Shown piece by piece: positions 1,869-23,984 of a stretch of 31,905 nt of DNA. The DNA is from a virus. The notes under the pieces were generated by a model that was not told where the DNA came from, did no database searches, and worked only from the letters and a program-made list of their open reading frames with translations. A program made the translations under genes and the position numbers. The stretch covers positions 1 through 31,905 of the IMG/VR virus record IMGVR_UViG_3300049841_000025. The stretch is one strand, 5' to 3'. Positions within the stretch are counted from its first letter, which is position 1. The number at the start of each line of letters is the position of its first letter.

Positions 1869-1923
1869 GTATAACGTTGGAGTTGAGCCGCCGTACTCGG
1901 TCGGCTCGAACGACTAGTTAGCC
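1869..1923 (+). other. attC site a (55 bp)
   Basis: The left end reads GTATAAC (degenerate R'') and the right end GTTAGCC (R'-like). The arms pair as GAGCCG-CCG with CGGTCGGCTC, leaving one unpaired T in the right arm. This is the first site of array 1 and shares the leader ATAACGTTG with site e, the first site of array 2. Confidence 0.7.
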
Positions 1924-1948
1924 GGCTGGTGGAGTACCGAAGGAACCC

Positions 1949-2731
1949 ATGCGAACACAGATTTGGAACAACGGCGGGGGCACACAGTCTGCGGCGATTG
2001 CCGCGCTGATCGTGACCGGCAAGCTGCCGAAGCCCGACCTTGCCGTAATTGCTGACACCGGCCGCGAGAAGAGCGCAACGTGGGACTACCACGACCGCTA
2101 CATCGCGCCGGCCTTGGCGAGCGTTGGCGTGACCATGCATCGTGTGCTCAAAGAGGACTGGGCGACGAAAGACCTGTACGGCGGCGCTGATGGCGACACG
2201 CTGCTGATTCCTGCGTTCACGACTCAGGGCGGCGGTGAGGTCGGCAAGTTGTCGACGTACTGCTCTGCCGAGTGGAAGCGCGACGTAATTCGCCGATGGG
2301 CCAACGCCCAAGGCGTGAAGGCTGCAACCAACTGGATCGGGTATTCCACCGACGAGATGGGCCGCGCCCACAAGGCGAAGCACTCGACCAAAGCGCAGGG
2401 CAAGTGGCAGGTTGACTTCCCGCTGATCAACTTGGGGATGGACCGTGGTGCCTGCTCACACTTGGCCTTGCAGGTGCTGGGCGCGCTGCCTGGTCGTTCA
2501 TCGTGCTGGATGTGCCCGAACATGCACATGGACGAATGGCGCGACGTGATGGCCGACGAGCGCGACCGTCCGAAGGTGATCCAGTTCGACCGCGAGCTTC
2601 GCAAGCGCGACCCGCATGCATGGCTGACCGACCAGGCCGTGCCGATTGATCAAGCGAACTTCGATGACTCAAACGAGGTTCTATTTGGCCGCGAGCACGG
2701 CGCATGCGACAGCGGCATGTGCTTCGTGTGA
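1949..2731 (+). CDS. PP-loop ATPase / PAPS-reductase-like protein (260 aa), cassette 1
   Basis: This is a member of the adenine-nucleotide alpha-hydrolase superfamily that includes PAPS reductases, ATP sulfurylase subunits and DndC. The P-loop variant is GGGTQS at residues 9-14. The family-like block TYCSAEWKRDVIRRW lies at about 103-117, and CWMC at 186-189. Cys105 with Cys186 and Cys189 could bind a metal or Fe-S cluster, and two more cysteines lie at 253 and 258. Such proteins activate substrates by adenylation or reduce sulfur compounds. In phages the substrate is generally unknown, and nucleic-acid modification is a possibility. The ATG has an AAGGA site eight bases upstream. It lies between attC sites a and b as a complete cassette. 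The fold is reasonably sure; the activity is not. Confidence 0.85.
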   Translation: MRTQIWNNGGGTQSAAIAALIVTGKLPKPDLAVIADTGREKSATWDYHDRYIAPALASVGVTMHRVLKEDWATKDLYGGADGDTLLIPAFTTQGGGEVGKLSTYCSAEWKRDVIRRWANAQGVKAATNWIGYSTDEMGRAHKAKHSTKAQGKWQVDFPLINLGMDRGACSHLALQVLGALPGRSSCWMCPNMHMDEWRDVMADERDRPKVIQFDRELRKRDPHAWLTDQAVPIDQANFDDSNEVLFGREHGACDSGMCFV

Positions 2732-2732
2732 C

Positions 2733-2790
2733 GGCTAACGTTCGAGTTGAGGGGCGCCGATAGGCGTCCCGCTCGAACGAGGGGTTAGAG
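2733..2790 (+). other. attC site b (58 bp)
   Basis: It runs from GGCTAAC to GTTAGAG and starts one base after the stop codon of the PP-loop gene. The arms pair through TTCGAG with CTCGAA and GGG-CGCC with GGCGTCCC, with an unpaired T in the right arm as in the other sites and one further mismatch. Confidence 0.8.
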
Positions 2791-2819
2791 CGCATGGTTC
2801 AGAAAACAAGGAGAACGTG

Positions 2820-3326
2820 ATGGGCAGAGAAGTAAGGCGCGTGCCGGCCGACTGGCAACACCCGAAGCACTGGACTGGCGGAATGCGCGGCCCGGAGGAA
2901 CGGTACAAGCCGCTCTACCCTGGCGAACGCTACCAGCCTGCCGTGGACGAGTGGGACGAAGAGTGCGCCAAGTGGAAAGCCGGTTGGCGCCCCGACCACT
3001 GCGACGACCCCGAGCACCGCGCCATGTGCTACGAGCAGTGGAGCGGCCAGCGCCCGCACTGCGACGACTACATGCCGAACTGGCCTACCGAACAGCGCAC
3101 GCACTTGATGATGTACGAGGACACCAGCGAGGGCACGCCGATCAGCCCGGCATTCGCTACACCCGAGGAACTGGCGCGCTGGCTGGCCGACACCAACGCA
3201 AGCGCGTTCGGCAGCGACGGCGCGAGCTACGAAGCCTGGCTGCGCATTGCGCGCGGTGGCTGGGCACCGAGCATGGTGTTCACGCCCGAGACCGGATTGC
3301 AAAGTGGCGTAGCTGCTGCGCTCTAA
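2820..3326 (+). CDS. Conserved phage hypothetical protein (168 aa), cassette 2
   Basis: The product starts MGREVRRVPADWQHPKHWTG and is rich in Trp, Pro, His and Cys (CDDPEHRAMCYEQW at about residues 60-73, RPHCDDYMPNW at about 78-88). Proteins opening MxREVRRVPxxWxHP occur in many phage and prophage genomes and have no assigned function that I know. The later block SEGTPISPAFATPEELARWL looks like a folded helical segment. The ATG at 2820 is preceded by AAGGAGAA; the GTG one codon earlier is less likely. The stop codon lies inside attC site c, so gene and site form a cassette. Confidence 0.8.
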   Translation: MGREVRRVPADWQHPKHWTGGMRGPEERYKPLYPGERYQPAVDEWDEECAKWKAGWRPDHCDDPEHRAMCYEQWSGQRPHCDDYMPNWPTEQRTHLMMYEDTSEGTPISPAFATPEELARWLADTNASAFGSDGASYEAWLRIARGGWAPSMVFTPETGLQSGVAAAL

Positions 3327-3377
3327 CGCCAGGTTAAGCGGCGCCGGCACGGCGTCCGCTTGAACCGACAGTTAGGC
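3321..3377 (+). other. attC site c (57 bp)
   Basis: It runs from CTCTAAC to GTTAGGC (R' fits the consensus GTTRRRY). The arms AAGCGGCGCCG and CGGCGTCCGCTT pair fully except for one unpaired T in the right arm. The stop codon of the preceding gene lies within the R'' box. Confidence 0.85.
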
Positions 3378-3409
3378 CCCAACGCGAACCGACAAGGAAT
3401 ACTTGACAG

Positions 3410-3481
3410 ATGGAAACGGATCTTCTTGCGCTGCTTGGCTTCGTGCTGATGCCGGCGCTGATTTGGTGGATTGAGGGGTGA
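3410..3481 (+). CDS. 23-residue membrane microprotein in cassette 3
   Basis: An ATG at 3410 opens METDLLALLGFVLMPALIWW followed by IEG and a stop. Nearly the whole peptide is one hydrophobic helix with an acidic residue at each end, as in small single-pass membrane proteins. A GACAAGGAAT motif lies upstream at some distance, and the next gene starts four bases after the stop. It has no recognised family. It is plausible because of its composition and tight spacing, but it is short enough to be chance. Confidence 0.45.
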   Translation: METDLLALLGFVLMPALIWWIEG

Positions 3482-3484
3482 GCT

Positions 3485-3820
3485 ATGAATGAGCCAATTG
3501 CGTGGATGGTTACGAACGACGACGGCCAAGACGCCTACGTGACAGCCGACCCATCGCTGGCCTCGAAGGGGCAAAGAGCCTTGGCGCTGTACGCCACAGT
3601 GCCGGCCGCCCAACTGGAGCTAGAGCGAACTGCGGCAGCGCTGGCTTTGGAGTTGGCAGAGGCGCGACATGCGCTCGAAAAGCTACGCAACCCGCACCCG
3701 AGGCTGCGCGTCGAATACTGGACAGGACAGTGGTGGGAGCCGCTGCAAGGAGAAGCGCTGGACGCGACTCTTGCCGCGCTGGAGCCGGCCCCGAAATGGT
3801 CGGTGGCTCTTGGGGCCTAA
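3485..3820 (+). CDS. Small phage protein with coiled-coil (111 aa), cassette 3
   Basis: The N terminus is MNEPIAWMVTNDDGQDAYVT, with a following LALYATVPAAQLE segment. This arrangement is frequent in small phage proteins of unknown function. Residues about 38-66 are a Leu/Ala/Glu-rich heptad-like helix, and the C terminus is aromatic (RVEYWTGQWWEPL). A GAGGGG ribosome-binding site lies within the end of the preceding microprotein gene, suggesting translational coupling. The stop codon TAA is part of the R'' box of mini-attC site d. Confidence 0.7.
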   Translation: MNEPIAWMVTNDDGQDAYVTADPSLASKGQRALALYATVPAAQLELERTAAALALELAEARHALEKLRNPHPRLRVEYWTGQWWEPLQGEALDATLAALEPAPKWSVALGA

Positions 3821-3844
3821 CGTGTTTTCGACATCTCGTTAACG
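3809..3844 (+). other. Terminal mini-attC element d (30-bp site from 3815 to 3844)
   Basis: A perfect R'' box GCCTAAC (3815-3821) and GTTAACG (3838-3844) enclose only 16 bases, with GTGT/ACAT as a minimal stem. The 36 nt 3809-3844 recur at 8066-8101 with one mismatch inside the site (T or A before CGTTAACG) and close array 1 just as the second copy closes array 2. Confidence 0.6.
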
Positions 3845-3866
3845 GAATCTGCAACAGAAATAAGCA

Positions 3867-4061
3867 ATGAACTGGCAAACCATCCTAGCGGCCATCCGCT
3901 CCCGTCCGATGACATTCGAGGAAATCCGCTCTCAGTGCGGGTTTGCCTCACGTAGTCACGTCTTCAACCTGGCAACCGGGAAGCAAAAGACCGTCGAGTG
4001 GTCGATTGGCGACAAGTTGCTTAAGCTGCACAAGAAAGTACTTAGGAGCGCTCGCAAGTGA
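3867..4061 (+). CDS. Small helix-turn-helix DNA-binding protein (64 aa)
   Basis: The sequence MNWQTILAAIRSRPMTFEEI then RSQCGFASRSHVFNLATGKQ fits a short HTH domain of the Cro/XRE type, with the turn near residues 20-35 (MTFEEIRSQCGFASRSHVFN) and a basic C terminus. Such 60-70 residue proteins in phages are transcriptional regulators. It is the first gene after array 1, and its stop overlaps the next gene's start by four bases. Its operator is not known; the dyads at 1749 and 1803 are candidates. The ribosome-binding site is weak. Confidence 0.65.
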   Translation: MNWQTILAAIRSRPMTFEEIRSQCGFASRSHVFNLATGKQKTVEWSIGDKLLKLHKKVLRSARK

Positions 4062-4582
4062 CCTACACAGCAGCCCCAAAGTGGACTCCCGCAGAGCTGG
4101 AAATCATGCGGGCGAACTACGCCACCAAGACCCGCAAGGAAATGATGGTTCTACTTCCAAACAGGTCTGATTTCTCCATCGGCTCGAAGGCTCAGGATAT
4201 GGGCCTAAAGTGCCTCGTCAAGAGCACGAACATCAACGTCAATCGTCCTGAGTGGTCGGACTGGGAGAAATTCCACCTCCAGACGGTCTACGCAGATCAC
4301 ACGATCTATGAGCTGTTGGAGATGTTCCCGGCCCGCTCGAGGCAATCCATAGAGCAGCGTGCTCATAGTCTTGGGCTCAAGAAGAATGCGGATGTTGTGA
4401 CTCGAACCCGGATCGCATCGGCAAAGAAAACCAAGATCGCCCAGGCCAAGGCGAAATGGGACGAATCCGAGGAAGCCGGCACGAAGCTGGTGATCGTGAA
4501 TCCGGCCCCGAATTCTGACTCGCTCGTTCGCAAGGCGATTGCAGTTCGGACTCCACTTGAGCAAGCGTGGAGCGTGCTGTGA
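4058..4582 (+). CDS. Tandem SANT/Myb-like DNA-binding protein (174 aa)
   Basis: There are two related segments. Residues about 9-50 begin WTPAELEIMRANYATKTRKE and end GSKAQDMGL; residues about 66-108 begin WSDWEKFHLQTVYADHTIYE and end EQRAHSLGLKK. Each has the W...E...L..Y......E....P.RS..SI..+A..LGL pattern of phage SANT/Myb-like DNA-binding repeats, often seen fused to HNH nucleases. No nuclease motif follows here; the last 65 residues are Lys/Ala-rich. The likely role is sequence-specific DNA binding. It overlaps both neighbours by four bases. Confidence 0.75.
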   Translation: MTYTAAPKWTPAELEIMRANYATKTRKEMMVLLPNRSDFSIGSKAQDMGLKCLVKSTNINVNRPEWSDWEKFHLQTVYADHTIYELLEMFPARSRQSIEQRAHSLGLKKNADVVTRTRIASAKKTKIAQAKAKWDESEEAGTKLVIVNPAPNSDSLVRKAIAVRTPLEQAWSVL

Positions 4583-4701
4583 TCTTCGGCCGCACTGTCG
4601 TGTTTCTTATGTTTCCGTTCATCGCCTTCTATTCGCTGTTCGTTTTTGCAGTGACGCTGGTGGTGATGTGGTTATCCATTCCGTTCATCAAGATCAAATG
4701 A
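4579..4701 (+). CDS. Membrane microprotein with GTG start (40 aa)
   Basis: The GTG at 4579 overlaps the upstream stop (GTGA) and opens IFGRTVVFLMFPFIAFYSLF followed by VFAVTLVVMWLSIPFIKIK. Almost the entire peptide is hydrophobic with basic residues at both ends, consistent with one or two membrane passes. The overlap start and the immediately following ribosome-binding site of the next gene support it. It has no known family. Confidence 0.55.
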   Translation: MIFGRTVVFLMFPFIAFYSLFVFAVTLVVMWLSIPFIKIK

Positions 4702-4711
4702 AGGAGAAAGC

Positions 4712-4954
4712 ATGAGCAAGCCTGAACTAAAGACTCAGGGGCGCAAGTTGATCGAGCACCTGAAGCGCCGGCCTATGACCTATGGCGAGATGCAGATGCT
4801 CGGCATCAGCACCAGCCCGCAGAAGCGCGTGGCTGAGTCGCTGTACCCCAACGAACAGCTTGTGAAGACATACGGACATGACAACCTCATCAGGTGGAGG
4901 GTGAAGACTTTTGCTCGGTGGACTAGCCCGCGCTTGACGGCAGGCGAACGGTAG
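4712..4954 (+). CDS. Hypothetical protein, possible winged-helix (80 aa)
   Basis: The ATG at 4712 follows an AAGGAG site by six bases. The sequence TQGRKLIEHLKRRPMTYGEM followed by QMLGISTSPQKRVAESL reads like the N-terminal half of a small winged-helix fold (helix, helix, turn, recognition helix), and it ends WRVKTFAR. This resembles phage proteins with a conserved H-L-K-x-R-x-M-T-x-x-E-M pattern. A DNA-binding role is plausible but unproven. The promoter of the downstream structured RNA overlaps the end of this gene. Confidence 0.65.
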   Translation: MSKPELKTQGRKLIEHLKRRPMTYGEMQMLGISTSPQKRVAESLYPNEQLVKTYGHDNLIRWRVKTFARWTSPRLTAGER

Positions 4955-4962
4955 GCTATGCT
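4934..4962 (+). promoter_or_regulatory. Sigma70-type promoter of the structured RNA
   Basis: TTGACG (4934-4939), 17 bases, TATGCT (4957-4962). The -35 matches five of six consensus bases and the -10 four. Transcription would start near 4969, about ten bases before the first long stem (4979) of the RNA-like region. Confidence 0.7.
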
Positions 4963-4968
4963 TTCTTC

Positions 4969-5545
4969 CGTCAGATGTGGCAGTCTGGCAGCCGTGGAGC
5001 GGCGACACGACCCCCGTGTGTGTTTAGGAGGGGCTGCGTGGTCTCAGGTTGCTCCACAGCCTCCAGACTGCCCAGCCAAGGGCCAGCCCCTCCTAAGTAC
5101 ATCCTGGGGTTTTTCTTTGCCTGTTTTTGACCGGACGACTCCCGTTAGTAGCGGTCCTGCATGGGATGCCAGTCAGAAACACCGGCCCTCGTACACCCCG
5201 AGGCGAGCCGTGCGGCCTGTCAGCGAGGGACCGCAGATGTTCTACCGGCAAGCGGTGAAGACAAACGGTAGAGCGGATGGAATCGCTGCCTCTTGGTGCG
5301 CTGGGAGGGTGTTTGATGTTCCTGCCCGCTTTGGGGGTCATGACCCAGAGTTGGACTGAGCGGATCGGCTAACAGGATTGCACCCTTCGGCCCCGCGACC
5401 CCTCATGGTGACATGGAGGCAGGAACATCAAGCATCTTCTGGGCGAGGGCCGATAGCCCAGGCTATCACCCTTGGGGAGGTTGTGTCAGATCAACGCCGA
5501 GGGAAGTCTCTTAGGGGGCTGGGTCTGTGGAAAGCCCCCTCGGCA
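4969..5545 (+). ncRNA. Large structured noncoding RNA candidate with pseudoknot
   Basis: About 580 bases have no credible gene but contain many perfect inverted repeats. 4979-4988 pairs with 5063-5072 (10 bp), enclosing 4994-5000 with 5051-5057 (7 bp) and 5005-5009 with 5015-5019. 5025-5036 pairs with 5084-5095 (12 bp) across the first stem, so it forms a pseudoknot or a switch. Further pairs are 5151-5157 with 5228-5234, 5187-5191 with 5199-5203, 5241-5247 with 5266-5272, 5313-5326 with 5418-5431 (14 bp), 5452-5458 with 5461-5467, and 5513-5520 with 5533-5540. A promoter stands exactly upstream. Size and complexity recall the large phage RNAs GOLLD and ROOL, but I could not match a conserved motif. 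I saw no tmRNA, RNase P or intron consensus. Confidence 0.7.
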
Positions 5546-5565
5546 CCTACAAAGAAGGAGAGAGA

Positions 5566-5904
5566 GTGATCGCCCTACCAGGCTACATAGACGCAGAAGC
5601 ATGGAAAGGCTTCGAGGACATGCGCAAGACCATCAAGAAGCCACTAACAGACCGCTCCCGCAAGCTGATCGTCTATGAGCTAGACAGGATCAAGAAAGCC
5701 GGGCACTGCCCGAACGGAGCGCTAGACCAGTCAACGTGCCATTGCTGGGCAGATGTGTACCCTCAGAAGGACAAGCCCATCGAAGCCGCAGCAAGCAACG
5801 CGCACGAGAAAACCCAGCAGTACCTAGCAGAGCACTCCCGAGCACCAGACCCACAGGCCCGGGAGAAGATCGCAGAGATTCGAGGAAGACTGAGGCGCGT
5901 ATAA
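5566..5904 (+). CDS. Small phage protein resembling C-terminal domain of replication proteins (112 aa)
   Basis: I place the start at GTG 5566 because AAGGAGAG lies just upstream; an ATG at 5527 lies inside the last hairpin of the structured RNA. The pattern EAWKGFEDMRKTIKKPLTDR followed by SRKLIVYELDRIKKAG...ALDQSTCHCWADVYP matches a domain often found at the C terminus of phage replication or replisome-organiser proteins: W-x-x-F-x-x-M-R-K, then K-P-x-T-x-R, then a terminal W. Here it stands alone. The role is probably linked to replication or DNA binding, by family resemblance only. The tail is charged and helical. Confidence 0.65.
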   Translation: MIALPGYIDAEAWKGFEDMRKTIKKPLTDRSRKLIVYELDRIKKAGHCPNGALDQSTCHCWADVYPQKDKPIEAAASNAHEKTQQYLAEHSRAPDPQAREKIAEIRGRLRRV

Positions 5905-5909
5905 AACGC

Positions 5910-5937
5910 TTGCACTCTGCCGCCGATGCGCTATGAT
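5910..5937 (+). promoter_or_regulatory. Sigma70-type promoter before array 2
   Basis: TTGCAC (5910-5915), 16 bases, TATGAT (5932-5937). The -10 matches five of six positions. It precedes the 84-residue gene at 5967 and would transcribe attC array 2, so both arrays have their own promoter. Confidence 0.65.
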
Positions 5938-5966
5938 GTTCACATAGCAGAACAGATGGAGCGAAC

Positions 5967-6221
5967 ATGAACGAACGCCAAGCATACGAACAGATGGCCG
6001 ACCGCCGCAGCTACAGCCAGCGCATTCACTTTGACTACAAAGCATGTGGATGCGCACTTGGTCTTACTCAATGCAATTGTTGCGGCGTAGACCCCAAAGA
6101 CAGCAACCAAGACCCCACACGCCCTGCACCTGTAAGCGCAGCAAGGAAACTCACTGCGGCTGGATGGATGGTGGTTTGCTGCCTGTGTTTTTGGGCGGCT
6201 GTCGCACTGGCTGTGTTTTGA
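5967..6221 (+). CDS. Cys-rich tail-anchored membrane protein (84 aa)
   Basis: The N-terminal half is polar with a cysteine cluster (ACGCALGLTQCNCCGVD at about residues 26-42) that could bind zinc. Residues 62-84 (LTAAGWMVVCCLCFWAAVAL and on) form one membrane helix at the extreme C terminus. The ATG follows a TGGAGCG site. The stop codon forms part of attC site e, so the gene is cassette-like at its 3' end, although no attC lies upstream. It would be the gene nearest the promoter of array 2. No known family. Confidence 0.65.
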   Translation: MNERQAYEQMADRRSYSQRIHFDYKACGCALGLTQCNCCGVDPKDSNQDPTRPAPVSAARKLTAAGWMVVCCLCFWAAVALAVF

Positions 6222-6276
6222 TAACGTTGAAATTAAGCGGCTGCCGTAGGCAGTCCGCTTGAATTGCGGGTTAGGC
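6219..6276 (+). other. attC site e (58 bp)
   Basis: It runs from TGATAAC to GTTAGGC. The arms AAGCGGCTGCC and GGCAGTCCGCTT pair completely except for one unpaired T. The TGA stop of the preceding gene is part of the R'' box. Confidence 0.85.
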
Positions 6277-6301
6277 CCGACGCGACCAACTAGGAAAACC
6301 A

Positions 6302-6550
6302 ATGGACGACGCTACGCGAGAAACGATGAACGCCAAGCTCGACGTGCTCTTTGACCAGATTTCTGCGCTGGAAGGAGCGCGACTGAACAAAGCCGCCTAT
6401 GCAGTTGAACTGTGGCGATCCGCCAAGGTTCAGGAGCATTTCGGACTTGGGCCGATGGAGACGCGATCAATCTACCGAAGCGCTTATGAAGCGCTGCGAG
6501 AGCTTGGGCTTGAGACTGGCGGCATGCTTAAACCGTATGAACGGGCCTAA
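6302..6550 (+). CDS. Unrecognised cassette protein (82 aa)
   Basis: This all-helical, charged protein starts MDDATRETMNAKLDVLFDQI and has the block VQEHFGLGPMETRSIYRSAY. No known motif, membrane segment or signal is seen. It lies alone between attC sites e and f, with a GGAAAACCA leader just before the ATG as a weak ribosome-binding site. The stop codon lies in the R'' box of site f. The isolated cassette position is the main contextual clue. Confidence 0.7.
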   Translation: MDDATRETMNAKLDVLFDQISALEGARLNKAAYAVELWRSAKVQEHFGLGPMETRSIYRSAYEALRELGLETGGMLKPYERA

Positions 6551-6646
6551 CGTTGCCAATAACCGGATACCAACGGCGCCGCAGGACTGACCGGAGCGCA
6601 CAACGGCCGACCGCCGTTGGTATTCCGGTTGATTGGCTGGTTAGGC
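6545..6646 (+). other. attC site f (102 bp)
   Basis: It runs from a perfect GCCTAAC to GTTAGGC. The long arms CCGGATACCAACGGC and GCCGTTGGTATTCCGG pair over 15 bp with one unpaired T. The 30-base loop contains GCAGGACTGACCGGAG. Confidence 0.9.
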
Positions 6647-6671
6647 GTCACCGCACACCACATGGGCAACG

Positions 6672-6869
6672 ATGAACATTTACCACATAGGCTGGACGCA
6701 AAGCGAGAGCTTCGGATTGAACGCGGTGGTGATCGCCGCCAGCGAAGACGAGGCGTTGAAGGAGTTGGACTTGAATGCCTCCTACAACAGCGAGATTCGC
6801 GTCAATCTGATGGGCGTTTGCACTGACGGCACGAAAGCCGCGCAGATCGTGTGCCAAGAGTCTTTGTGA
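6672..6869 (+). CDS. Unrecognised cassette protein (65 aa)
   Basis: The sequence MNIYHIGWTQSESFGLNAVV followed by IAASEDEALKELDL suggests a compact beta-beta-alpha start, similar in style to small phage and cassette proteins opening K/N-I-Y-x-I-x-x-x...V-V-A-A-x-x-E-x-E-A. No catalytic motif is visible. It sits between attC sites f and g as a single-gene cassette, with its stop two bases before the R'' box of site g. The ribosome-binding site is poor, so translation may depend on coupling. Confidence 0.7.
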   Translation: MNIYHIGWTQSESFGLNAVVIAASEDEALKELDLNASYNSEIRVNLMGVCTDGTKAAQIVCQESL

Positions 6870-6870
6870 C

Positions 6871-6972
6871 GCCTAACGTTCGAGCTAAGCGGGCAGCCAC
6901 GGCGCCCGCGATGCCCGAGTAACACACAATTGCCGGCCGCCGTGGCTGCTCCGCTTGAGCGAGTGGTTAGGG
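6871..6972 (+). other. attC site g (102 bp)
   Basis: It runs from a perfect GCCTAAC to GTTAGGG. The arms AAGCGGGCAGCCACGGC and GCCGTGGCTGCTCCGCTT pair over 17 bp with a single unpaired T. GTTCGAGC opposite GCTTGAGCGAGTG forms the outer L''/L' region. Confidence 0.9.
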
Positions 6973-6997
6973 CGCCGGTTCCGAAGCGAGGAAGACT

Positions 6998-7276
6998 ATG
7001 CAAGCTACCGATTACCTGACTTTGAAGTGGGGAACGCTGAAGGCCTGGAACCTGACAAGCGAGAAAGGGCGAGAACTGCTGAAGCGCTACTTTGAACTCG
7101 GTTCGTCGCCTGGCGCGATGACACAGCACGACACGCCGGAACAGAAGGAGTTGATCTGCCAGATGATCGACGAGTGCAATGCGGAGACGATCTATCTGGA
7201 TTGGGACGGCGTGGACGTTACCAAGGACGAAGCGAAGCGCTACGTCATGGAGTACGGCCAGAAGGCGGCTGTCTGA
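6998..7276 (+). CDS. Unrecognised acidic cassette protein (92 aa)
   Basis: The product starts MQATDYLTLKWGTLKAWNLT and continues with KGRELLKRYFELGSSPGAMT and IYLDWDGVDVTKDEAKRYVM. It is mostly helical and slightly acidic, with no cysteines of note or membrane segment. Small proteins with the pattern LKWGTLKxW and ELLxRYxELGxSxxAMxQ occur in phages and mobile elements without a function I can name. It is a single-gene cassette between sites g and h. A GAGGAAGA ribosome-binding site precedes the ATG. Confidence 0.75.
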   Translation: MQATDYLTLKWGTLKAWNLTSEKGRELLKRYFELGSSPGAMTQHDTPEQKELICQMIDECNAETIYLDWDGVDVTKDEAKRYVMEYGQKAAV

Positions 7277-7280
7277 AGCG

Positions 7281-7376
7281 CCCTAACGTGGGAATTGAGC
7301 CGCATTTGCCGGCACAGGAGTAACGATGAACAGCAACGCTACGCCGGCAAATGTCGGATCGAATGACGGGTTAGGC
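7281..7376 (+). other. attC site h (96 bp), carries a ribosome-binding site and start codon
   Basis: It runs from CCCTAAC to GTTAGGC. The arms GAGCCGCATTTGCCGGC and GCCGGCAAATGTCGGATC pair with one unpaired T plus one end mismatch. The loop holds AGGAG (7316-7320) and, five bases on, ATG (7326). Confidence 0.85.
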
Positions 7377-7430
7377 GTCTGCCCGATAGACGCCACAACT
7401 GGAAGCGAACAATGGACACAAGGACTGTGA
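7326..7430 (+). CDS. attC-borne leader ORF (34 aa)
   Basis: The frame starts in the loop of attC site h with AGGAG and five-base spacing, which is better than the signal of any nearby gene. It runs through the right arm and R' box and ends at 7430, overlapping the start of the next cassette gene (7412). The peptide begins MNSNATPANVGSNDGLGVCP and is unlike any protein I know. A translation-coupling leader is more likely than a functional protein, comparable to the attI-borne ORF-11 known from class 1 integrons. Confidence 0.4.
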   Translation: MNSNATPANVGSNDGLGVCPIDATTGSEQWTQGL

Positions 7431-7633
7431 ACCACCTGGGCATGATTGAAGCGGCGGCAAGCATGGCGCCGATTCACGAGCGGCCCATGAGCCACACCGA
7501 CGAGAACTGGAAAGCGTTGCCGCAGCGGCTGCGTGGGCGCGGCGATTTCCTGCTGAAGCGCGAACATATCAAGGACGCCGAACTGATGTTCGACGCGGCG
7601 ACCGAGATCGAAGCACTGCGGGCGCGCGGATGA
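7412..7633 (+). CDS. Unrecognised cassette protein (73 aa)
   Basis: The product starts MDTRTVNHLGMIEAAASMAP and ends in a charged helix (EHIKDAELMFDAATEIEALR). The C-terminal part, in which helices carry RGRGDFLLKREHIKDAELMF, resembles small phage proteins of unknown role. There is no direct ribosome-binding site; instead the start lies within the attC-borne leader ORF, 18 bases before its stop. The gene fills the cassette between sites h and i. Confidence 0.65.
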   Translation: MDTRTVNHLGMIEAAASMAPIHERPMSHTDENWKALPQRLRGRGDFLLKREHIKDAELMFDAATEIEALRARG

Positions 7634-7634
7634 C

Positions 7635-7737
7635 GCCTAACGATGGACATGAGCGGCCAGAACCGGCCGCAGGAGAACGCTGATGGACTCTCATAGCAAC
7701 CCGGCCGGGGCTGGTCCGCTCGATGGACCGGTTAGGC
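7635..7737 (+). other. attC site i (103 bp), carries a ribosome-binding site and start codon
   Basis: It runs from a perfect GCCTAAC to GTTAGGC, starting two bases after the previous stop. The arms GAGCGGCCAG and CTGGTCCGCTC pair with one unpaired T. The loop holds AGGAG (7671-7675), seven bases before the ATG at 7683. Confidence 0.85.
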
Positions 7738-8099
7738 CTGGCTCCGAAGCGCTCGCCGGGAAGTACGGCAACGTGCTTGCGCCTTTCGTTGAACTGATGG
7801 CGGCAGAACTCCACTCAAATGCGAGGAAGGGAGACCGTCCAGGCTGGCTTTCAATGTCGCGCGAAGTCGCGTTGCTGGAAATCTACTGGCATACCGCGAA
7901 GCTTTCGGCTGCGGTCAAGAACAACGAAGCTGCAGCGATCCGCGAGCACTCGGCCGACGTGGCGAACATGGCGATGATGCTGCTAGACGTGTGCGGCGGA
8001 CTGCAAACCGCCGCGTGCGAATGGCCGACTTGCGAGTGTGCGTTGGAGCCGAAGAACTGCAGGGCCTTGGGGCCTAACGTGTTTTCGACATCACGTTAA
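7683..8099 (+). CDS. Phage protein with ADVANMAMML helix, N terminus encoded by attC (138 aa)
   Basis: The block ELHSNARKGDRPGWLSMSRE then VALLEIYWHTAKLSAAVKNN and REHSADVANMAMMLLDVCGG is typical of a widespread small phage protein group. The all-helical arrangement loosely recalls MazG-type folds, but I see no convincing EExxE metal site. Translation can start at ATG 7683, inside the loop of attC site i behind AGGAG, which gives a 38-residue extension encoded by the recombination site before an internal Met at 7797. The alternative start is that internal ATG, without a good ribosome-binding site. The cysteine-rich end (CEWPTCECALEPKNC) could bind metal. The stop codon lies within mini-site j. 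Confidence 0.75.
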   Translation: MDSHSNPAGAGPLDGPVRPGSEALAGKYGNVLAPFVELMAAELHSNARKGDRPGWLSMSREVALLEIYWHTAKLSAAVKNNEAAAIREHSADVANMAMMLLDVCGGLQTAACEWPTCECALEPKNCRALGPNVFSTSR

Positions 8100-8101
8100 C
8101 G
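8066..8101 (+). other. Terminal mini-attC element j (30-bp site from 8072 to 8101)
   Basis: GCCTAAC and GTTAACG enclose 16 bases. TAACGTG and CACGTTA form a 7-bp stem. The 36 nt repeat 3809-3844 with one mismatch. It is the last site of array 2 and is followed directly by ordinary phage genes. Confidence 0.6.
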
Positions 8102-9820: not shown

Positions 9821-11170
9821 TTGAAGCTCACCGCAAAGCAGCAGGAAGCCCAAGCAGTCATCGCTGGGCCTGCGACTCACATCCTCCTGATTGGTGGAAG
9901 CCGCAGCGGTAAGACCTTCCTGCTCATCCGAAACATCGTGTTTCGGGCGCTCAAAGCCCCGAAGAGCAGACACGCTGTGTTCCGGTTCAGGTTCAACGCC
10001 TGTAAGTCGTCAGTGGTTCAGGACACATTCCCCAAGGTGATGCAGGTAGCCTTTCCTGGCGTCAAGTTCAACCTGAGCAAAACCGACTGGTATGCCGAGT
10101 TCGAGAACGGTAGCCAAATCTGGTTCGGTGGTCTGGATGACAAGGAACGGGCCGAGAAGATCCTCGGCATGGAGTTCGTCACCATCTATCTAAACGAGGC
10201 CAGCCAGATCCCCCAAGCTAGCCGGGACATGGCGGTAACGCGCCTTGCACAGCACGTCATGCAGGAGATTGAGGGCAGGGAGCCTGTCCCGCTCAAGCCT
10301 CGCATGTACTATGACTGCAACCCGCCGAGCAAAGCACACTGGACGTACAAACTGTTCGTGCTCAAGCAAGACCCAGACACCCGGCAATCACTGAGCAAGC
10401 CGGATGATTACGCATATTTCAGGATCAACCCCCAAGACAATGCCGCAAACGTCAGCGCCGGATACCTCGAAACCCTGCAGCAGCTTGGCGCAAGACTCCG
10501 TAAGCGATTCCTTGATGGTGAGTTCGCAGACGCCACGCCAAACGCCTTGTTCTCCGATGAGTCAATCGAAACTTGGCGAGTCATGGACGGCCGGTTGCCA
10601 GACTTCGTGCGGGTTGTCGTCGCAGTCGATCCAAGTGGATCAGGAGACGTGGAGAACGCGGACAACGATGCTATCGGAATCGCTGTTGCCGCACTCGGTA
10701 CTGATGGAAACGCTTATCTGCTGGAGGACGCAACAGTCAAGGCTGGCCCAGCAACATGGGGAAAGATCGCAGCCGACGCCTATGACAGACATCAGGCAGA
10801 CTGCATCGTCGGTGAAGTCAACTACGGCGGCGCTATGGTCGAGCACACCATACAGACCGCCAGGCGAGACGCAGGACAGCGCAGAATCCCTTACAAGTCA
10901 GTGATAGCCACCCGAGGCAAGGCAGTGCGGGCTGAGCCGATCAGCGCACTGTATGAGCAGGGGAAGGTGCGCCATGTCGGGTATTTCAGAGACTTAGAGG
11001 ACGAACTTGTAGCCTTCTCGACTGTTGGCTATCTCGGAGACAGATCGCCAAACCGAGCCGATGCACTGATTTGGGCATTGACCGAGCTATTCCCCGGAAT
11101 CGTCACGCCTCGCAAAGAGAAGAAAGAGGCCAAACCCTATCAACCCCCACAGTCGTGGATGGCGGCATGA
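9821..11170 (+). CDS. Terminase large subunit (449 aa)
   Basis: This is the ATPase-nuclease motor that packages phage DNA into the procapsid through the portal. Walker A GGSRSGKT lies at residues 25-32. The Walker B-like strand TIYLNEA at 121-127 carries catalytic Glu126 (Asn instead of the usual Asp before it). The RNase H-like nuclease domain has VVVAVDPSGSG (Asp270), GEVNYGG (Glu332) and NRADALIW (Asp414) as the likely metal-binding triad. Length fits the family. The start is TTG 9821: the frame is closed by a stop 30 bases upstream and has no ATG. It overlaps the next gene by four bases. Confidence 0.95.
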   Translation: MKLTAKQQEAQAVIAGPATHILLIGGSRSGKTFLLIRNIVFRALKAPKSRHAVFRFRFNACKSSVVQDTFPKVMQVAFPGVKFNLSKTDWYAEFENGSQIWFGGLDDKERAEKILGMEFVTIYLNEASQIPQASRDMAVTRLAQHVMQEIEGREPVPLKPRMYYDCNPPSKAHWTYKLFVLKQDPDTRQSLSKPDDYAYFRINPQDNAANVSAGYLETLQQLGARLRKRFLDGEFADATPNALFSDESIETWRVMDGRLPDFVRVVVAVDPSGSGDVENADNDAIGIAVAALGTDGNAYLLEDATVKAGPATWGKIAADAYDRHQADCIVGEVNYGGAMVEHTIQTARRDAGQRRIPYKSVIATRGKAVRAEPISALYEQGKVRHVGYFRDLEDELVAFSTVGYLGDRSPNRADALIWALTELFPGIVTPRKEKKEAKPYQPPQSWMAA

Positions 11171-11507: not shown

Positions 11508-13832
11508 ATGGCAAAGCAAGACACGCTGCAACAGGCACGAGAAGAATACGCCGACGCACAAGAAGCAGTCCGGGAGCAGCACGAGCGATTCCGTGCGGAT
11601 CTTCGCTTCTCCAATCCTGCCGAGCCTGAGCAATGGGACGACTACGCTAAGGTGGCCCGCAAGGGGCGCCCTATGCTCACCCTGGACCGTACCAATCAGT
11701 ACATCGCCCAGGTTGTCAACGACTCCCGACAGAACAAACCCAGCATCCAGACCCTCCCGGCCGACTCCCGGGCTGATATAGAGGTAGCGAAACGACTCAA
11801 CGGCATCATTCGCCACATTGAGTACACCTCCCGCGCTGCGATTGCCTATGACACGGCCATTGAGCTATCCGCACGGGTAGGACAGGGCTGGCTCCGCGTT
11901 CTGCCCAAGGTCGTCCGTTCCGAGACGAACGAGCAGGAAATCACCATTGCACGGGTCCACGACCCGATGAGCATCTGTCTCGACCCGAACTCGGTAGAGC
12001 CTGACGGGTGCGATTCGATGTTTGGGTTTGCCGAGTCAACCCTGACTGATAAAGCCTTCTCCCGCATGTATCCCAAGGCCAAGAAGGCCAGTTGGGACAG
12101 CGAAGGGTGGTTCGGGGACGACTCAATCCGCATTGCTGAGCAGTTCAGGATCTACGAAGAGAAGCAGAACCGCATCACCATCCGAGGCCCAGAGGGCAAT
12201 CAGATGTCGGTTAGCGAGGATGATTACTGGAAGATCGCGGCGCAAACTGGTATGAAGCCCGAAGTATTGGGCACGTTCATTGCCAAGACGCGCAAGGTGA
12301 AGTGGCGCAAGCTGTCAGGCGTGGAAGTCTTGGAAGAGACGGAGTTTCCCAGCCAGTGGGTGCCGCTGATCCCCGTCCTTGGCTATGAACTGTGGGTAGA
12401 GGGTAAACGCTACCTCTGCGGCATGGTGCGCCGCATGATGGACGGCCAGAGGCTTCACAACTACGAAGCCAGCGCGCAGACAGAAGCCTTGATGGTGCAG
12501 CCTAAGGCGCCTTTCTTGGTGTCTACCCGTGCGCTTGAGGGAAACGAGAAAGAATGGCAGTCCCTAAACAGCGGGAATCCTCCGTACCTGCCGTGGAATG
12601 ACCTGGACACGGACAACCCCAACGCCCCGCCAGTTCAGCCGCCTCAGCGCCTCTCCCCGCCCTCGTTCCCTGCTGCGTTCAACAACGGCAACACCCGTGG
12701 ATCGATGGAGATGGAAGCCTCCGTGGGCATGTCCAAGTCAAATCTTGGGCAACCGTCAAACGCAGTAAGCGGGCGGGCCAAGCTGGCAGATCAGCGCGAG
12801 GGAGATACGGCCAACTTCCATTACATCGACAACCTGCGCCGATCAATGGAGCACATGGGCCGAATCATCGTGGACATGATCCCGAAGATTTACGACACCG
12901 AGCGCCAAGCAAAGATCATGGGGGAGGATGGTGAGCAATCAGCCGTTCAGATCAATCCGAACATGCCTAACCCCGTGGCGAAGCAGGGCGGGAAGATTGT
13001 CGCCATCAATCCGGGTGTCGGCGCCTATGACGTGCGCGTCAAGGTCGGGCCGTCCTTCGCGTCGCTTAGAGAAGAGACAGCAGCCAACCTGACAGAACTC
13101 AGCCGGGGGAATCCTCAGTTGGGGGCTGCTCTTGCCCCTCTTCTGGTGAAGATGAGCGATCTGCCAGAGGCGGACAAGATCAGCCGGGTTGCCATTGCGA
13201 TGCTCCCGCCTAACGTCCAGCAGGTTTACAACGAGGACGACAGCGACTCGGAAATCCCGGCCGGGGTGAAGGCCAAGATGATGGCCGATGCTCAGCAGAT
13301 CGAGCAAATGTCCGCCGCTATGGATCAGGCGGGACAGGTCATCCAAGACCTACAGGGCCAGGTCAACGAGAAGAACACGCAGGTTCAGGACGAAGCGGCT
13401 AAGGCTACGGCTGAAATCAAGGCCGCACAGACTGAACTGAAGGCCCAGGCAGATGCTCTGGCCTCTCAGAAGCGCGAGCTTGACCTACAGAAGCGCAATG
13501 CCCAGCTTGAGCTTGACCTGAGTGTCATGCGCGCTCAGGAGAAGTTGCGGGTGGCGGCTGAGCCCCCCGAGATGCCTGAGACGGATAGCGAGGCAGAGGC
13601 TCCAGAACCTGAGGACGACAAGGAAGACAAGATGCTTGCAGCGCTCTCCGAGGCTGTGATGAGCATCGCAACTCAGGTTCAACAGGTTTCTGCCCAAGTC
13701 GAGCAGATCGGCCAGCAGGTAGAGGGTGCAAAGACTGTCGGGGCTGAGAAGATCAAAGGGCAGGACGGCAAGATGATTGGCGCAAGGATCACACAGGCAG
13801 ACGGCACAACCCGTGACGTGCTGATTCAATAA
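11508..13832 (+). CDS. P22-like portal protein (774 aa)
   Basis: The dodecameric portal ring forms the DNA channel and docks terminase and tail. P22-type features appear in order: the N-terminal GRPMLTLDRTNQYIAQVVND (about residues 53-72); the region TAIELSARVGQGWLRVLPKV; HDPMSICLDPNSVEPDGCDS; and the core around YLCGMVRRMMDGQRLHNYEA. Length is close to P22 gp1. From about residue 600 the protein becomes a long Gln/Ala/Glu-rich coiled coil plus an acidic segment (SEAEAPEPEDDKEDK), comparable to the barrel extension of P22 but richer in heptads. The stop overlaps the next ATG (TAATG). Confidence 0.93.
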   Translation: MAKQDTLQQAREEYADAQEAVREQHERFRADLRFSNPAEPEQWDDYAKVARKGRPMLTLDRTNQYIAQVVNDSRQNKPSIQTLPADSRADIEVAKRLNGIIRHIEYTSRAAIAYDTAIELSARVGQGWLRVLPKVVRSETNEQEITIARVHDPMSICLDPNSVEPDGCDSMFGFAESTLTDKAFSRMYPKAKKASWDSEGWFGDDSIRIAEQFRIYEEKQNRITIRGPEGNQMSVSEDDYWKIAAQTGMKPEVLGTFIAKTRKVKWRKLSGVEVLEETEFPSQWVPLIPVLGYELWVEGKRYLCGMVRRMMDGQRLHNYEASAQTEALMVQPKAPFLVSTRALEGNEKEWQSLNSGNPPYLPWNDLDTDNPNAPPVQPPQRLSPPSFPAAFNNGNTRGSMEMEASVGMSKSNLGQPSNAVSGRAKLADQREGDTANFHYIDNLRRSMEHMGRIIVDMIPKIYDTERQAKIMGEDGEQSAVQINPNMPNPVAKQGGKIVAINPGVGAYDVRVKVGPSFASLREETAANLTELSRGNPQLGAALAPLLVKMSDLPEADKISRVAIAMLPPNVQQVYNEDDSDSEIPAGVKAKMMADAQQIEQMSAAMDQAGQVIQDLQGQVNEKNTQVQDEAAKATAEIKAAQTELKAQADALASQKRELDLQKRNAQLELDLSVMRAQEKLRVAAEPPEMPETDSEAEAPEPEDDKEDKMLAALSEAVMSIATQVQQVSAQVEQIGQQVEGAKTVGAEKIKGQDGKMIGARITQADGTTRDVLIQ

Positions 13833-22784: not shown

Positions 22785-23984
22785 ATGGCTAATACCATCA
22801 AGACCCTAAGCGCTGGCGACATCACCCGCGAAGCGCTGCGCATTTTCAAGAACGAGAATTCTATTATCGGTGCCGTGAATCGGCAATACGATGATCGATT
22901 CGCAACTACGGGATCGAAAAACGGTGGAACTCTGCAGATTCGTCTGCCGAACCGTTATACCGTTGGAACTGGTCGAACCATCACGCCGCAGGACACCACC
23001 GAGCAAACGACCGCGCTTGTCGTCGCTACTCAGTATCACGTCCCGATGCAGTTCTACTCTGACGAGCTGACGCTTTCGCTTGACGATTTCTCCCAACGGA
23101 TCATCAAGCCGGCAACGTCTGTACTCGCGTCGAAAGTCGCTTCTGATGTTGCTGTTGCGTGCCAAAGCGCATTCACCAACTACGTCGGAACTCCTGGAAC
23201 CACGCCTTCGTCATTCCTGACCTATGCCCAAGCCGGCGAGCGCCTCGACTGGCAGACGGCTCCGCGCGATGGGAATCGCTCGGTTGTCATCAGCCCGACC
23301 GCGATGAGCGCGACGGTTGACGCACAGAAGGGCCTGTTCCACTCCGGGAAAAGCATCGCAAGCCAGTACGAAAGCGGTGTCACCGAGGCGATGACTGGTT
23401 TCAATTTCGTGATGGATCAGTCTATCCAGACGCTGACGGCAGGCGCTCGCAACACCGCCTACGTGACCGGCGCGGGTACCCCGCTGACCTCTGGCACGAA
23501 TCAGCTCCTGGTGGCGACTGGTGCGAACGCGATGGTGGCGGGTGACCAGTTCACCATTGCCGGCATCTTCGAGGTGAACCCTGATACCAAGCAATCGACG
23601 GGCATCCCGAAGGTGTTCACGGTGTCTGCGGCTTACGCTGGCGGTGCTGGAACCATCTCGCTGTCGCAGGTGATTTACACGTCTGGCGCATACCAGAACG
23701 TGTCTGCTGCCATCACCAACGGCTTGGCAATGACCTTCATCGGCACCGCTTCGACTGGCTACCCGCGCAACTTGGCGTTTCACCGTGACTCAACGGTTTT
23801 AGCGTCTGCAGACCTTGTCATGCCAAAGAACATGGACATGGCATTCCAAGCCCGCATGGACGGTGTATCGATGCGGTTTGTCCGTGGCTTCGATGTCACT
23901 AACGACAACTTTATCAGCCGTCTCGATGTGCTGATTGGCATCAAGGTCGTTCGTCCAGAGTGGGGCGTGGTGGTCTACGGCTGA
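22785..23984 (+). CDS. P22-like major coat protein (399 aa)
   Basis: HK97-fold major capsid protein of the P22 gp5 family, the shell-forming subunit. Family-like blocks are ITREALRIFKNENSIIGAVN at about residues 11-30, GTLQIRLPNRYTVGTGRT near 46-63, and YHVPMQFYSDELTLSLDDF near 84-102. The long middle (ANAMVAGDQFTIAGIFEVNP) matches the inserted I-domain of P22 coat. YPRNLAFHRDSTVLASADLV precedes a conserved end, GIKVVRPEWGVVVYG. Length is close to P22 gp5 (about 430). It follows the scaffold gene and is followed by a strong hairpin. Confidence 0.95.
   Translation: MANTIKTLSAGDITREALRIFKNENSIIGAVNRQYDDRFATTGSKNGGTLQIRLPNRYTVGTGRTITPQDTTEQTTALVVATQYHVPMQFYSDELTLSLDDFSQRIIKPATSVLASKVASDVAVACQSAFTNYVGTPGTTPSSFLTYAQAGERLDWQTAPRDGNRSVVISPTAMSATVDAQKGLFHSGKSIASQYESGVTEAMTGFNFVMDQSIQTLTAGARNTAYVTGAGTPLTSGTNQLLVATGANAMVAGDQFTIAGIFEVNPDTKQSTGIPKVFTVSAAYAGGAGTISLSQVIYTSGAYQNVSAAITNGLAMTFIGTASTGYPRNLAFHRDSTVLASADLVMPKNMDMAFQARMDGVSMRFVRGFDVTNDNFISRLDVLIGIKVVRPEWGVVVYG

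Follow-up and report, generated by a model that had tools for sequence, protein, structure and literature searches.

Phage cassette arrays that probably belong to an orientation-inverted, phage-specific class of integron

Bacterial integrons are gene-capture platforms in which the cassettes face away from the integrase and one promoter can drive them. The IMG/VR record IMGVR_UViG_3300049841_000025 (31,905 nt, linear and possibly incomplete; the whole record is the window analysed here) holds two arrays of integron-type attC sites and small genes within a phage genome, which raises the question of whether these are bacterial cassettes that a phage has picked up or an integron system of phages themselves. 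Pfam profiles identify the portal, coat and terminase families of P22-like phages in the record (Table 1); named phages are only distantly alike (34% identity for the portal and 49% for the terminase), the best portal relative within the phage collection being MW202573. The array half of the record gave zero matches in a nucleotide search against phage records.

A covariance model built solely from seven plasmid class-1 attC sites, oriented with their genes, was run on the window and returned exactly the eight full sites of the preliminary description (E 2.3e-11 to 6.9e-6), the next match having an E-value of 0.3. All eight of these sites, as well as two mini-sites, are located where that description had placed them, and the unpaired right-arm base that it had noticed is confirmed as one or more extra bases in the plus-strand right arm of every full site. 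The sites thus combine the canonical attC fold with extra-helical bases, and with at least two attC sites and no intI gene the window qualifies as a cluster of attC sites lacking an integrase (CALIN). The earlier claim that a P22-like phage has true attC sites of the integron type, along with cassettes of one gene each, is upheld. An Rfam scan of the window gave zero matches, and among the cassette proteins nothing passed the curated cut-offs of Pfam, while PHROGs supplied a name for the PAPS-reductase-like protein only.

Table 1. Positions of attC sites, attI-like mini-sites, cassette genes and phage genes in the window (CM, covariance model)
Feature	Position	Strand	Evidence or remark
attC s1, left end of array 1	1869..1923	-	CM R1 49.1 bits, E 2.3e-11; left box GTATAAC is phage flank
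Cassette gene, PAPS-reductase-like, 260 aa	1949..2731	+	phrog_424 E 1.3e-22; codon score 60.6 on +, 1.8 on -
attC s2	2733..2790	-	CM 37.5 bits, E 4.1e-8
Cassette gene, 169 aa	2817..3326	+	homologue, 86% DNA, in viral contig L227
attC s3	3321..3377	-	CM 36.4 bits, E 8.4e-8
Cassette gene, 111 aa	3485..3820	+	codon score 15.1 on +, 1.8 on -
Mini-site 1, attI-like, closes array 1	3815..3844	-	core 3819-3840; attI profile 13.6, second-best in window
Phage genes between both arrays	3867..6221	+	no attC match by CM
Replication-initiation O-like protein, between arrays	5527-5904	+	phrog_678 E 1.1e-15
attC s4, left end of array 2	6219..6276	-	CM 34.1 bits, E 3.8e-7; left box GATAAC is phage flank
Cassette gene, 82 aa	6302..6550	+	codon score 10.7 on +, 1.8 on -
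attC s5	6545..6646	-	CM 29.5 bits, E 6.9e-6
Cassette gene, 65 aa	6672..6869	+	homologue, 89% DNA, in terminase-bearing viral contig L184
attC s6	6871..6972	-	CM 45.1 bits, E 3.1e-10
Cassette gene, 92 aa	6998..7276	+	codon score 24.5 on +, -0.9 on -
attC s7	7281..7376	-	CM 33.8 bits, E 4.3e-7
Cassette gene, 73 aa	7412..7633	+	codon score 16.1 on +, 2.1 on -
attC s8	7635..7737	-	CM 48.0 bits, E 4.9e-11; loop with ribosome-binding-like GGAG and ATG of next gene
Cassette gene, 138 aa, start inside attC s8	7683..8099	+	same cassette in phage contig G001
Mini-site 2, attI-like, closes array 2	8072..8101	-	core 8076-8097; attI profile 18.1, best in window
Terminase large subunit	9821..11170	+	PF04466 E 3.5e-16
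P22-like portal protein	11508..13832	+	PF16510 E 4.5e-145
P22-like coat protein	22785..23984	+	PF11651 E 3.5e-38

The preliminary description was correct that the sites are real, but overlooked that every one of them is inverted relative to the genes. The usual rule is that an ORF runs along its attC, and all cassettes in the window violate it, the attC strand being minus for all eight sites and the cassette genes lying on the plus strand. The extra bases indicate the same inversion, as they sit in the right arm here and in the left arm in canonical cassettes.

This flipped layout recurs in dozens of further viruses and is very rare in the bacteria used for comparison. Genes run opposite to their attC in 200 of 200 scorable cassettes from IMG/VR contigs, where viral status mostly reflects the IMG/VR classification and hallmark genes were examined in some contigs. 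Recounting with a bacterial codon model gave 173 opposite and 2 same, and contigs bearing a terminase gave 56 and 0, respectively (PF03237 alone overlooks many terminases, hence PHROGs were applied to selected contigs). In contrast, bacterial contigs with the same attC type have 69 cassettes in the same and 4 in the opposite orientation (Fisher p about 2e-60 with cassettes treated as independent, those from related contigs not being fully so). A model-based recount in further bacterial contigs yielded 56 same and 3 opposite, two of the latter at an apparent prophage edge. The published phage MW202573 likewise has attC on the minus and CDS on the plus strand; phage TJE1 has a single weak attC match in canonical orientation. 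Of 100 portal or terminase relatives searched, just two (L039 and L017) had attC. The earlier view that attC arrays in phages are unusual does not hold, since they were published previously (Qi et al. 2023, PMC9892861) and are common among IMG/VR viruses.

If the window simply held ordinary chromosomal-integron cassettes captured from bacteria, i.e. a standard CALIN, their orientation should be unremarkable. Such an origin would agree with the attC type, which resembles that of Rubrivivax, Paucibacter and Ideonella integrons, and with the CALINs already described in phages (PMC9892861), but we consider it very unlikely, as opposed genes are found in all window cassettes and all 200 viral ones compared to 4 of 73 in those bacteria. 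In addition, a protein-level comparison to 120 bacterial loci matched just eight phage cassettes, and the strongest of these loci (L347, Rubrivivax) likewise has its array inverted, adjoins an excisionase and is apparently a prophage edge; it is located on a different contig from the intI of that genome. Chimeric assembly or binning could be suspected given that the window and most of its relatives are metagenome contigs; yet there are two arrays in one phage with phage genes flanking them, and the arrangement is repeated in the independent contig L001/G001, in the GenBank genome MW202573 and in dozens of contigs, leaving an artefact extremely improbable.

The window cassettes carry single genes and have complementary ends. 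The R′ box of each site pairs with the R″ box of the next, with 57 contiguous matches over eight cassettes, whereas the control pairing of each site's own two boxes gives 22 matches over ten sites (permutation, 7 in 100,000). Complementary ends of at least 7 bases are present in 77% of 201 viral cassettes, whereas pairing both boxes of a single site gives 37% and random pairing 34%. This is as expected for captured circles. Moreover, the cassette consisting of attC s8 and the 138-aa gene is found in G001, there in the middle of an array, with 88% identity over the matched stretch, and the exact limits of the homology are the 5′ attC on one side and the next R″ box on the other. This supports an exchange of cassettes among phages, with junctions at the boundaries predicted.

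These observations also bear on the idea that the sites are decayed, immobile relics retained as operon hairpins or leaders, for which the missing intI and the start codons or short leaders on two sites could be quoted. Relics would hardly be expected to retain complementary cassette ends (still 5–9 bases here) or to recur as the same cassette, differently placed, in another phage, and in intI-bearing contigs arm pairing is maintained by compensatory changes at 12 of 12 predicted pairs, such that we regard decay as a very poor explanation. Alternatively, the genes could be normal and the folding polarity of attC flipped, with a variant integrase using the other strand and each attC belonging to the preceding gene. 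Stop codons do lie near the R″-like box of the next site, as in standard cassettes. However, homologous cassettes have in common the attC preceding the gene rather than the one following it, the attC bodies upstream differ whereas the docking body on the downstream side is constant, attI immediately precedes intI, the arrangement of standard integrons, and the minus-strand arm sequences fit the standard model, all of which makes flipped polarity very unlikely.

The two mini-sites had been read as small attC sites. We dismiss the notion that they are degenerate attCs, as the stem is absent and they match attI instead. Their cores have the form AAC..GTT, mini-site 1 being a dyad whose two boxes flank a short spacer, and mini-site 2 has an identical counterpart in the relative L001. 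Against a phage attI profile built from 14 intI-linked attI sites (match length 21 bases) these two predicted sites are the top matches in the window. They look like putative docking sites because the window's best matches to the attI sites beside phage integron-integrase genes fall here, although, being near-copies of each other, the two are not independent.

A complete integron also has an intI gene, which the window lacks. No match to intI or a tyrosine recombinase was found across the 31.9 kb record, including the rest of the phage where the preliminary description had suggested looking, and intI was likewise not found in G001 and L087. However, about 20 viral contigs have a complete [attC-gene]n-attI-intI layout with all genes co-directional. 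In intI-bearing viral contigs 55 cassettes are opposite and 4 in the same orientation, phage genes for head, packaging or tail are present in three of these contigs, and in the four examined for attI-intI geometry intI begins just past attI and reads away from it. In an IntI tree a virus-only clade holds 16 of the 18 inverted-array integrases; its stem is weakly supported (80/45; main subclade 98/93), and the remaining two (L444 and L455) fall outside on long branches. Of the proposed phage-type inverted integron the window displays the opposed genes and the downstream, predicted attI, and the viral contigs add intI.

The attC identity, the inversion, the end complementarity, the attI-like sites and the sharing of whole cassettes among phages were computed directly. 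Together these sequence features make it highly probable that the window holds two integron arrays of a phage-specific, orientation-inverted class, represented here by an intI-less array with attI-like sites. From them we infer that IntI would recombine the cassettes, that the phage operon would express them, and why they are inverted. Single-gene circles (attC body plus gene) would be inserted by an integron integrase at the attI-like dyad that closes the array downstream. Recombination would follow the standard geometry, with attI followed by attC on the strand opposite the genes, but every ORF is flipped, so that the genes would be transcribed with the phage operon towards attI and newcomers would consequently join at the promoter-distal end. 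Each attC thereby lies in the 5′ leader of the gene that it belongs to and is sometimes the source of its start codon, which about half of the long attCs do provide. Some other phages encode the matching integrase directly after attI and in the same direction; as the window is without intI, its phage would borrow an integrase in trans from the host or a co-infecting phage, or the gene would sit in the missing sequence.

More broadly, we lean towards the view that tailed phages have an integron lineage of their own, with cassettes back to front and attC as 5′ leader, and that orientation by itself would separate the phage and bacterial cassette pools, as a cassette moved from one to the other would land antisense to the promoter. 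If true, phages would have a dedicated means to swap small accessory genes and would join the sites of cassette evolution, and the reason for the fixed orientation of cassettes would become testable. The attC strand relative to the gene strand could also serve as a simple marker distinguishing phage from bacterial cassettes in metagenomes.

Compared to published systems, the window resembles the phage CALINs of Qi et al. 2023 (PMC9892861), e.g. MW202573, TJE1 and PH101, in having intI-less attC clusters inside a phage. In the portions of that paper drawn on here, IntI1 recombined 5 of 6 assayed phage attC sites with attI1, and the TJE1 and PH101 arrays are called typical of bacteria; those portions report neither systematic inversion nor start codons inside attC, both of which are seen here, and no attI-like site in virulent phages, whereas the window has two attI-like mini-sites. 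P22-like phages have the same portal, coat and terminase families, from which the window differs by its cassette arrays and low identity. With class 1 and sedentary chromosomal integrons, the phage type shares the IntI family, attI beside intI, attC with extra-helical bases and single-gene cassettes with complementary ends; it departs from them in that its genes run against attC and towards attI instead of along attC and away from intI, and the window itself differs further in being without intI. In the Treponema 'reverse' integrons (PMC3607928) intI transcription is directed at attI, and intI and cassette genes are co-directional, as in the phage type. The phage type nevertheless does not fit a Treponema-type reverse integron, as intI leads away from attI in the four contigs examined: the phage type keeps intI in its standard position and direction relative to attI, and it is the cassette ORFs that are flipped instead.

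Run unfiltered over the window, a covariance model based on the attC of seven plasmid class-1 cassettes (aadA1, catB3, aadA2, qacL, dfrB1, aacA4 and cmlA), oriented with their genes, returned eight full-size sites only, with E values from 2.3e-11 to 6.9e-6 and a next match at E 0.3. This bears out the preliminary description, which had placed eight full sites and two mini-sites in the window at positions that we confirm and had suggested such a model as a check. As captured circles predict, the R' box at each site is reverse-complementary to the R'' box at the following one, giving 57 contiguous matches across eight cassettes versus 22 across ten sites for R' and R'' within a single site (7 of 100,000 permutations were as good). 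Among 201 viral cassettes, the two ends match over at least 7 bases in 77%; the corresponding figures are 37% for the two boxes within a site and 34% for random pairs.

In a canonical attC the left arm holds the extra unpaired bases, beside the stop of the gene. In the window they lie in the right arm at all eight full sites, as the preliminary description had seen, and also at the site of the relative L001 (L001/G001). All eight model matches are on the minus strand. Long viral ORFs served to train a codon model, which puts every cassette gene of the window on the plus strand; the genes are thus opposed to their attC.

This inversion extends well beyond the window. A 19-base attC motif matched 66 stretches of viral contigs, where the covariance model gave about 300 sites; of 210 unique cassettes, 200 are opposite to their attC, none run with it and 10 are undecided (173 versus 2 when rescored with a bacterial codon model; 56 versus 0 in terminase-match contigs plus the window). 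Bacterial genomes with the same motif, mostly Burkholderiales (Rubrivivax, Paucibacter, Ideonella), gave 69 cassettes with attC, 4 against and 24 undecided; in the bacterial contigs, strand by model agrees with strand by motif. When additional bacterial contigs were counted with the covariance model, the tally was 56 versus 3. The viral and bacterial orientations differ with a Fisher p of about 2e-60, a value that assumes independent cassettes, although those of related contigs are not fully so. Of the three exceptions in this second count, two belong to L347, which covers one end of a Rubrivivax sp. contig and whose inverted array looks like a prophage edge because excisionase-like and PAPS-reductase-like genes adjoin it and it has cassettes in common with viral contigs; this points to Burkholderiales as a host group for phages of this type. 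Two contigs, L184 and L207, have attC on both strands in separate blocks, amounting to a pair of arrays that face in different directions and are both inverted with respect to their genes. Phage TJE1 (HQ225832) has a single weak attC match (E 3e-4) whose strand is also that of the genes around it, and inversion is therefore not universal among phage arrays.

Features discussed in the text, with positions in their own records
Feature	Record	Position	Remark
PAPS-reductase-like cassette gene	window	1949-2731	similar protein adjoins the L347 array
Mini-site 1	window	3815-3844	
Segment outside arrays	window	5131-5183	short; 91% identical to G001 32735-32787
Last full attC (s8)	window	7635-7737	
ORF of last cassette	window	7683-8099	starts inside attC
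Mini-site 2	window	8072-8101	
Single attC match	L245 (TJE1)	244-293	
attC of L001 (G001)	L176	near 4196-4296	
Inverted array	L347 (Rubrivivax sp. SCN 71-131)	first 8 kb of contig	
Viral contig	G084		terminase, portal, major head, tape measure
Viral contig	G108		terminase, tail fibre
Viral contig	G106		portal, tape measure, primase

The preliminary description had proposed comparing related phages at the cassette boundaries. The last window cassette recurs, at 88% identity, midway along the 12-site array of phage contig G001. The homology starts with the R'' of the attC before the gene and ends inside the R'' that follows the gene, the point at which the window has a mini-site and G001 another attC. 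Seven more homologous pairs were compared: in six, the attC body before the gene is more alike than that after it. The boundary is clear in L191/L229 and L229/L186 and partial in the others. These alignments fit [attC-gene] as the moving unit. Of 197 cassettes, 51 have an in-frame ATG within the attC that leads into the gene (50 of the 102 with long attCs), as in the last window cassette, compared with 14 and 12 in the other two frames; 39 have a purine-rich, ribosome-binding-like stretch. The gene following the L001 (G001) attC near L176 4196-4296 reads well in one frame only, and visual inspection showed no normal start codon in that frame, which may reflect a frameshift or a sequencing error.

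IntI scored above the curated cut-off in 5 of 50 array-bearing viral contigs, and a search with phage IntI revealed relatives in about 60 viral contigs and attC matches at 28 loci, whose cassettes are opposite to attC in 55 cases, with it in 4 and undecided in 4. Four intI contigs, examined for their layout, have [attC-gene]n - attI - intI in that order on one strand. G084, G108 and G106 carry the genes listed in the table and are therefore tailed phages. In an alignment fitted to the model, the attC stems of intI-bearing contigs have compensatory changes in 12 of 12 predicted pairs. In a tree of 18 inverted-array and 23 bacterial integrases, the latter picked via the attC motif rather than from the whole diversity, a virus-only clade holds 16 of the 18 (stem support 80/45, main subclade 98/93); the integrases of L444 and L455 fall outside it on long branches. 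Three viral contigs (L435, L450 and L470) differ from the above order, their attC lying downstream of intI and sharing its strand, and the single scorable cassette among them, in L435, runs with its attC. Virus Rctr41k (KX853513) encodes an IntI-like protein 47% identical to phage IntI, and this covariance model finds no clear attC there.

The core TAACGTGTTTTCGACATC ends both window arrays and also, at an equivalent place in the genome, the single-cassette array of L001, after different cassettes. Viral contigs bearing intI have a site of form CTAACNTNAATTCGACCGCAG between the last cassette and intI. A profile built from 14 of these sites gives the mini-sites its two highest scores in the window (18.1 for mini-site 2, 13.6 for mini-site 1), with 9.6 for the best position elsewhere; as near-copies, the two count as one piece of evidence. 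Given these scores and their dyad form (two boxes around a short spacer), we read the mini-sites as putative attI-like docking sites, and not as the attC sites for which they had been taken.

For recombination and expression alike, we infer a scheme in which [attC-gene] circles would enter at the attI-like site via a folded attC strand, in the usual integron manner; new cassettes would land promoter-distal in a phage operon read towards attI, and each attC would end up in the 5' leader of its gene. Because intI was found neither in the 31.9-kb window record nor in the relatives G001 and L087, the integrase would come from the host, another phage or a missing part of the record.

The window, which spans the whole of a linear IMG/VR virus record (31,905 bases), is P22-like by its portal, coat and terminase families, and named phages are distant (best portal match 34%, best terminase match 49%). 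Clusters of attC sites in phages have been known since 2023, when phage CALINs were published (PMC9892861), with five of six sites reported to recombine. Its phage MW202573 is the best portal relative of the window phage and, on rechecking, has attC on the minus and CDS on the plus strand. A word search of the paper finds no mention of inversion; the literature covered is open-licence without preprints, and an unseen report is possible. In Treponema integrons (PMC3607928) it is intI that is flipped and not the cassettes, whereas in the phage type the cassettes are flipped.
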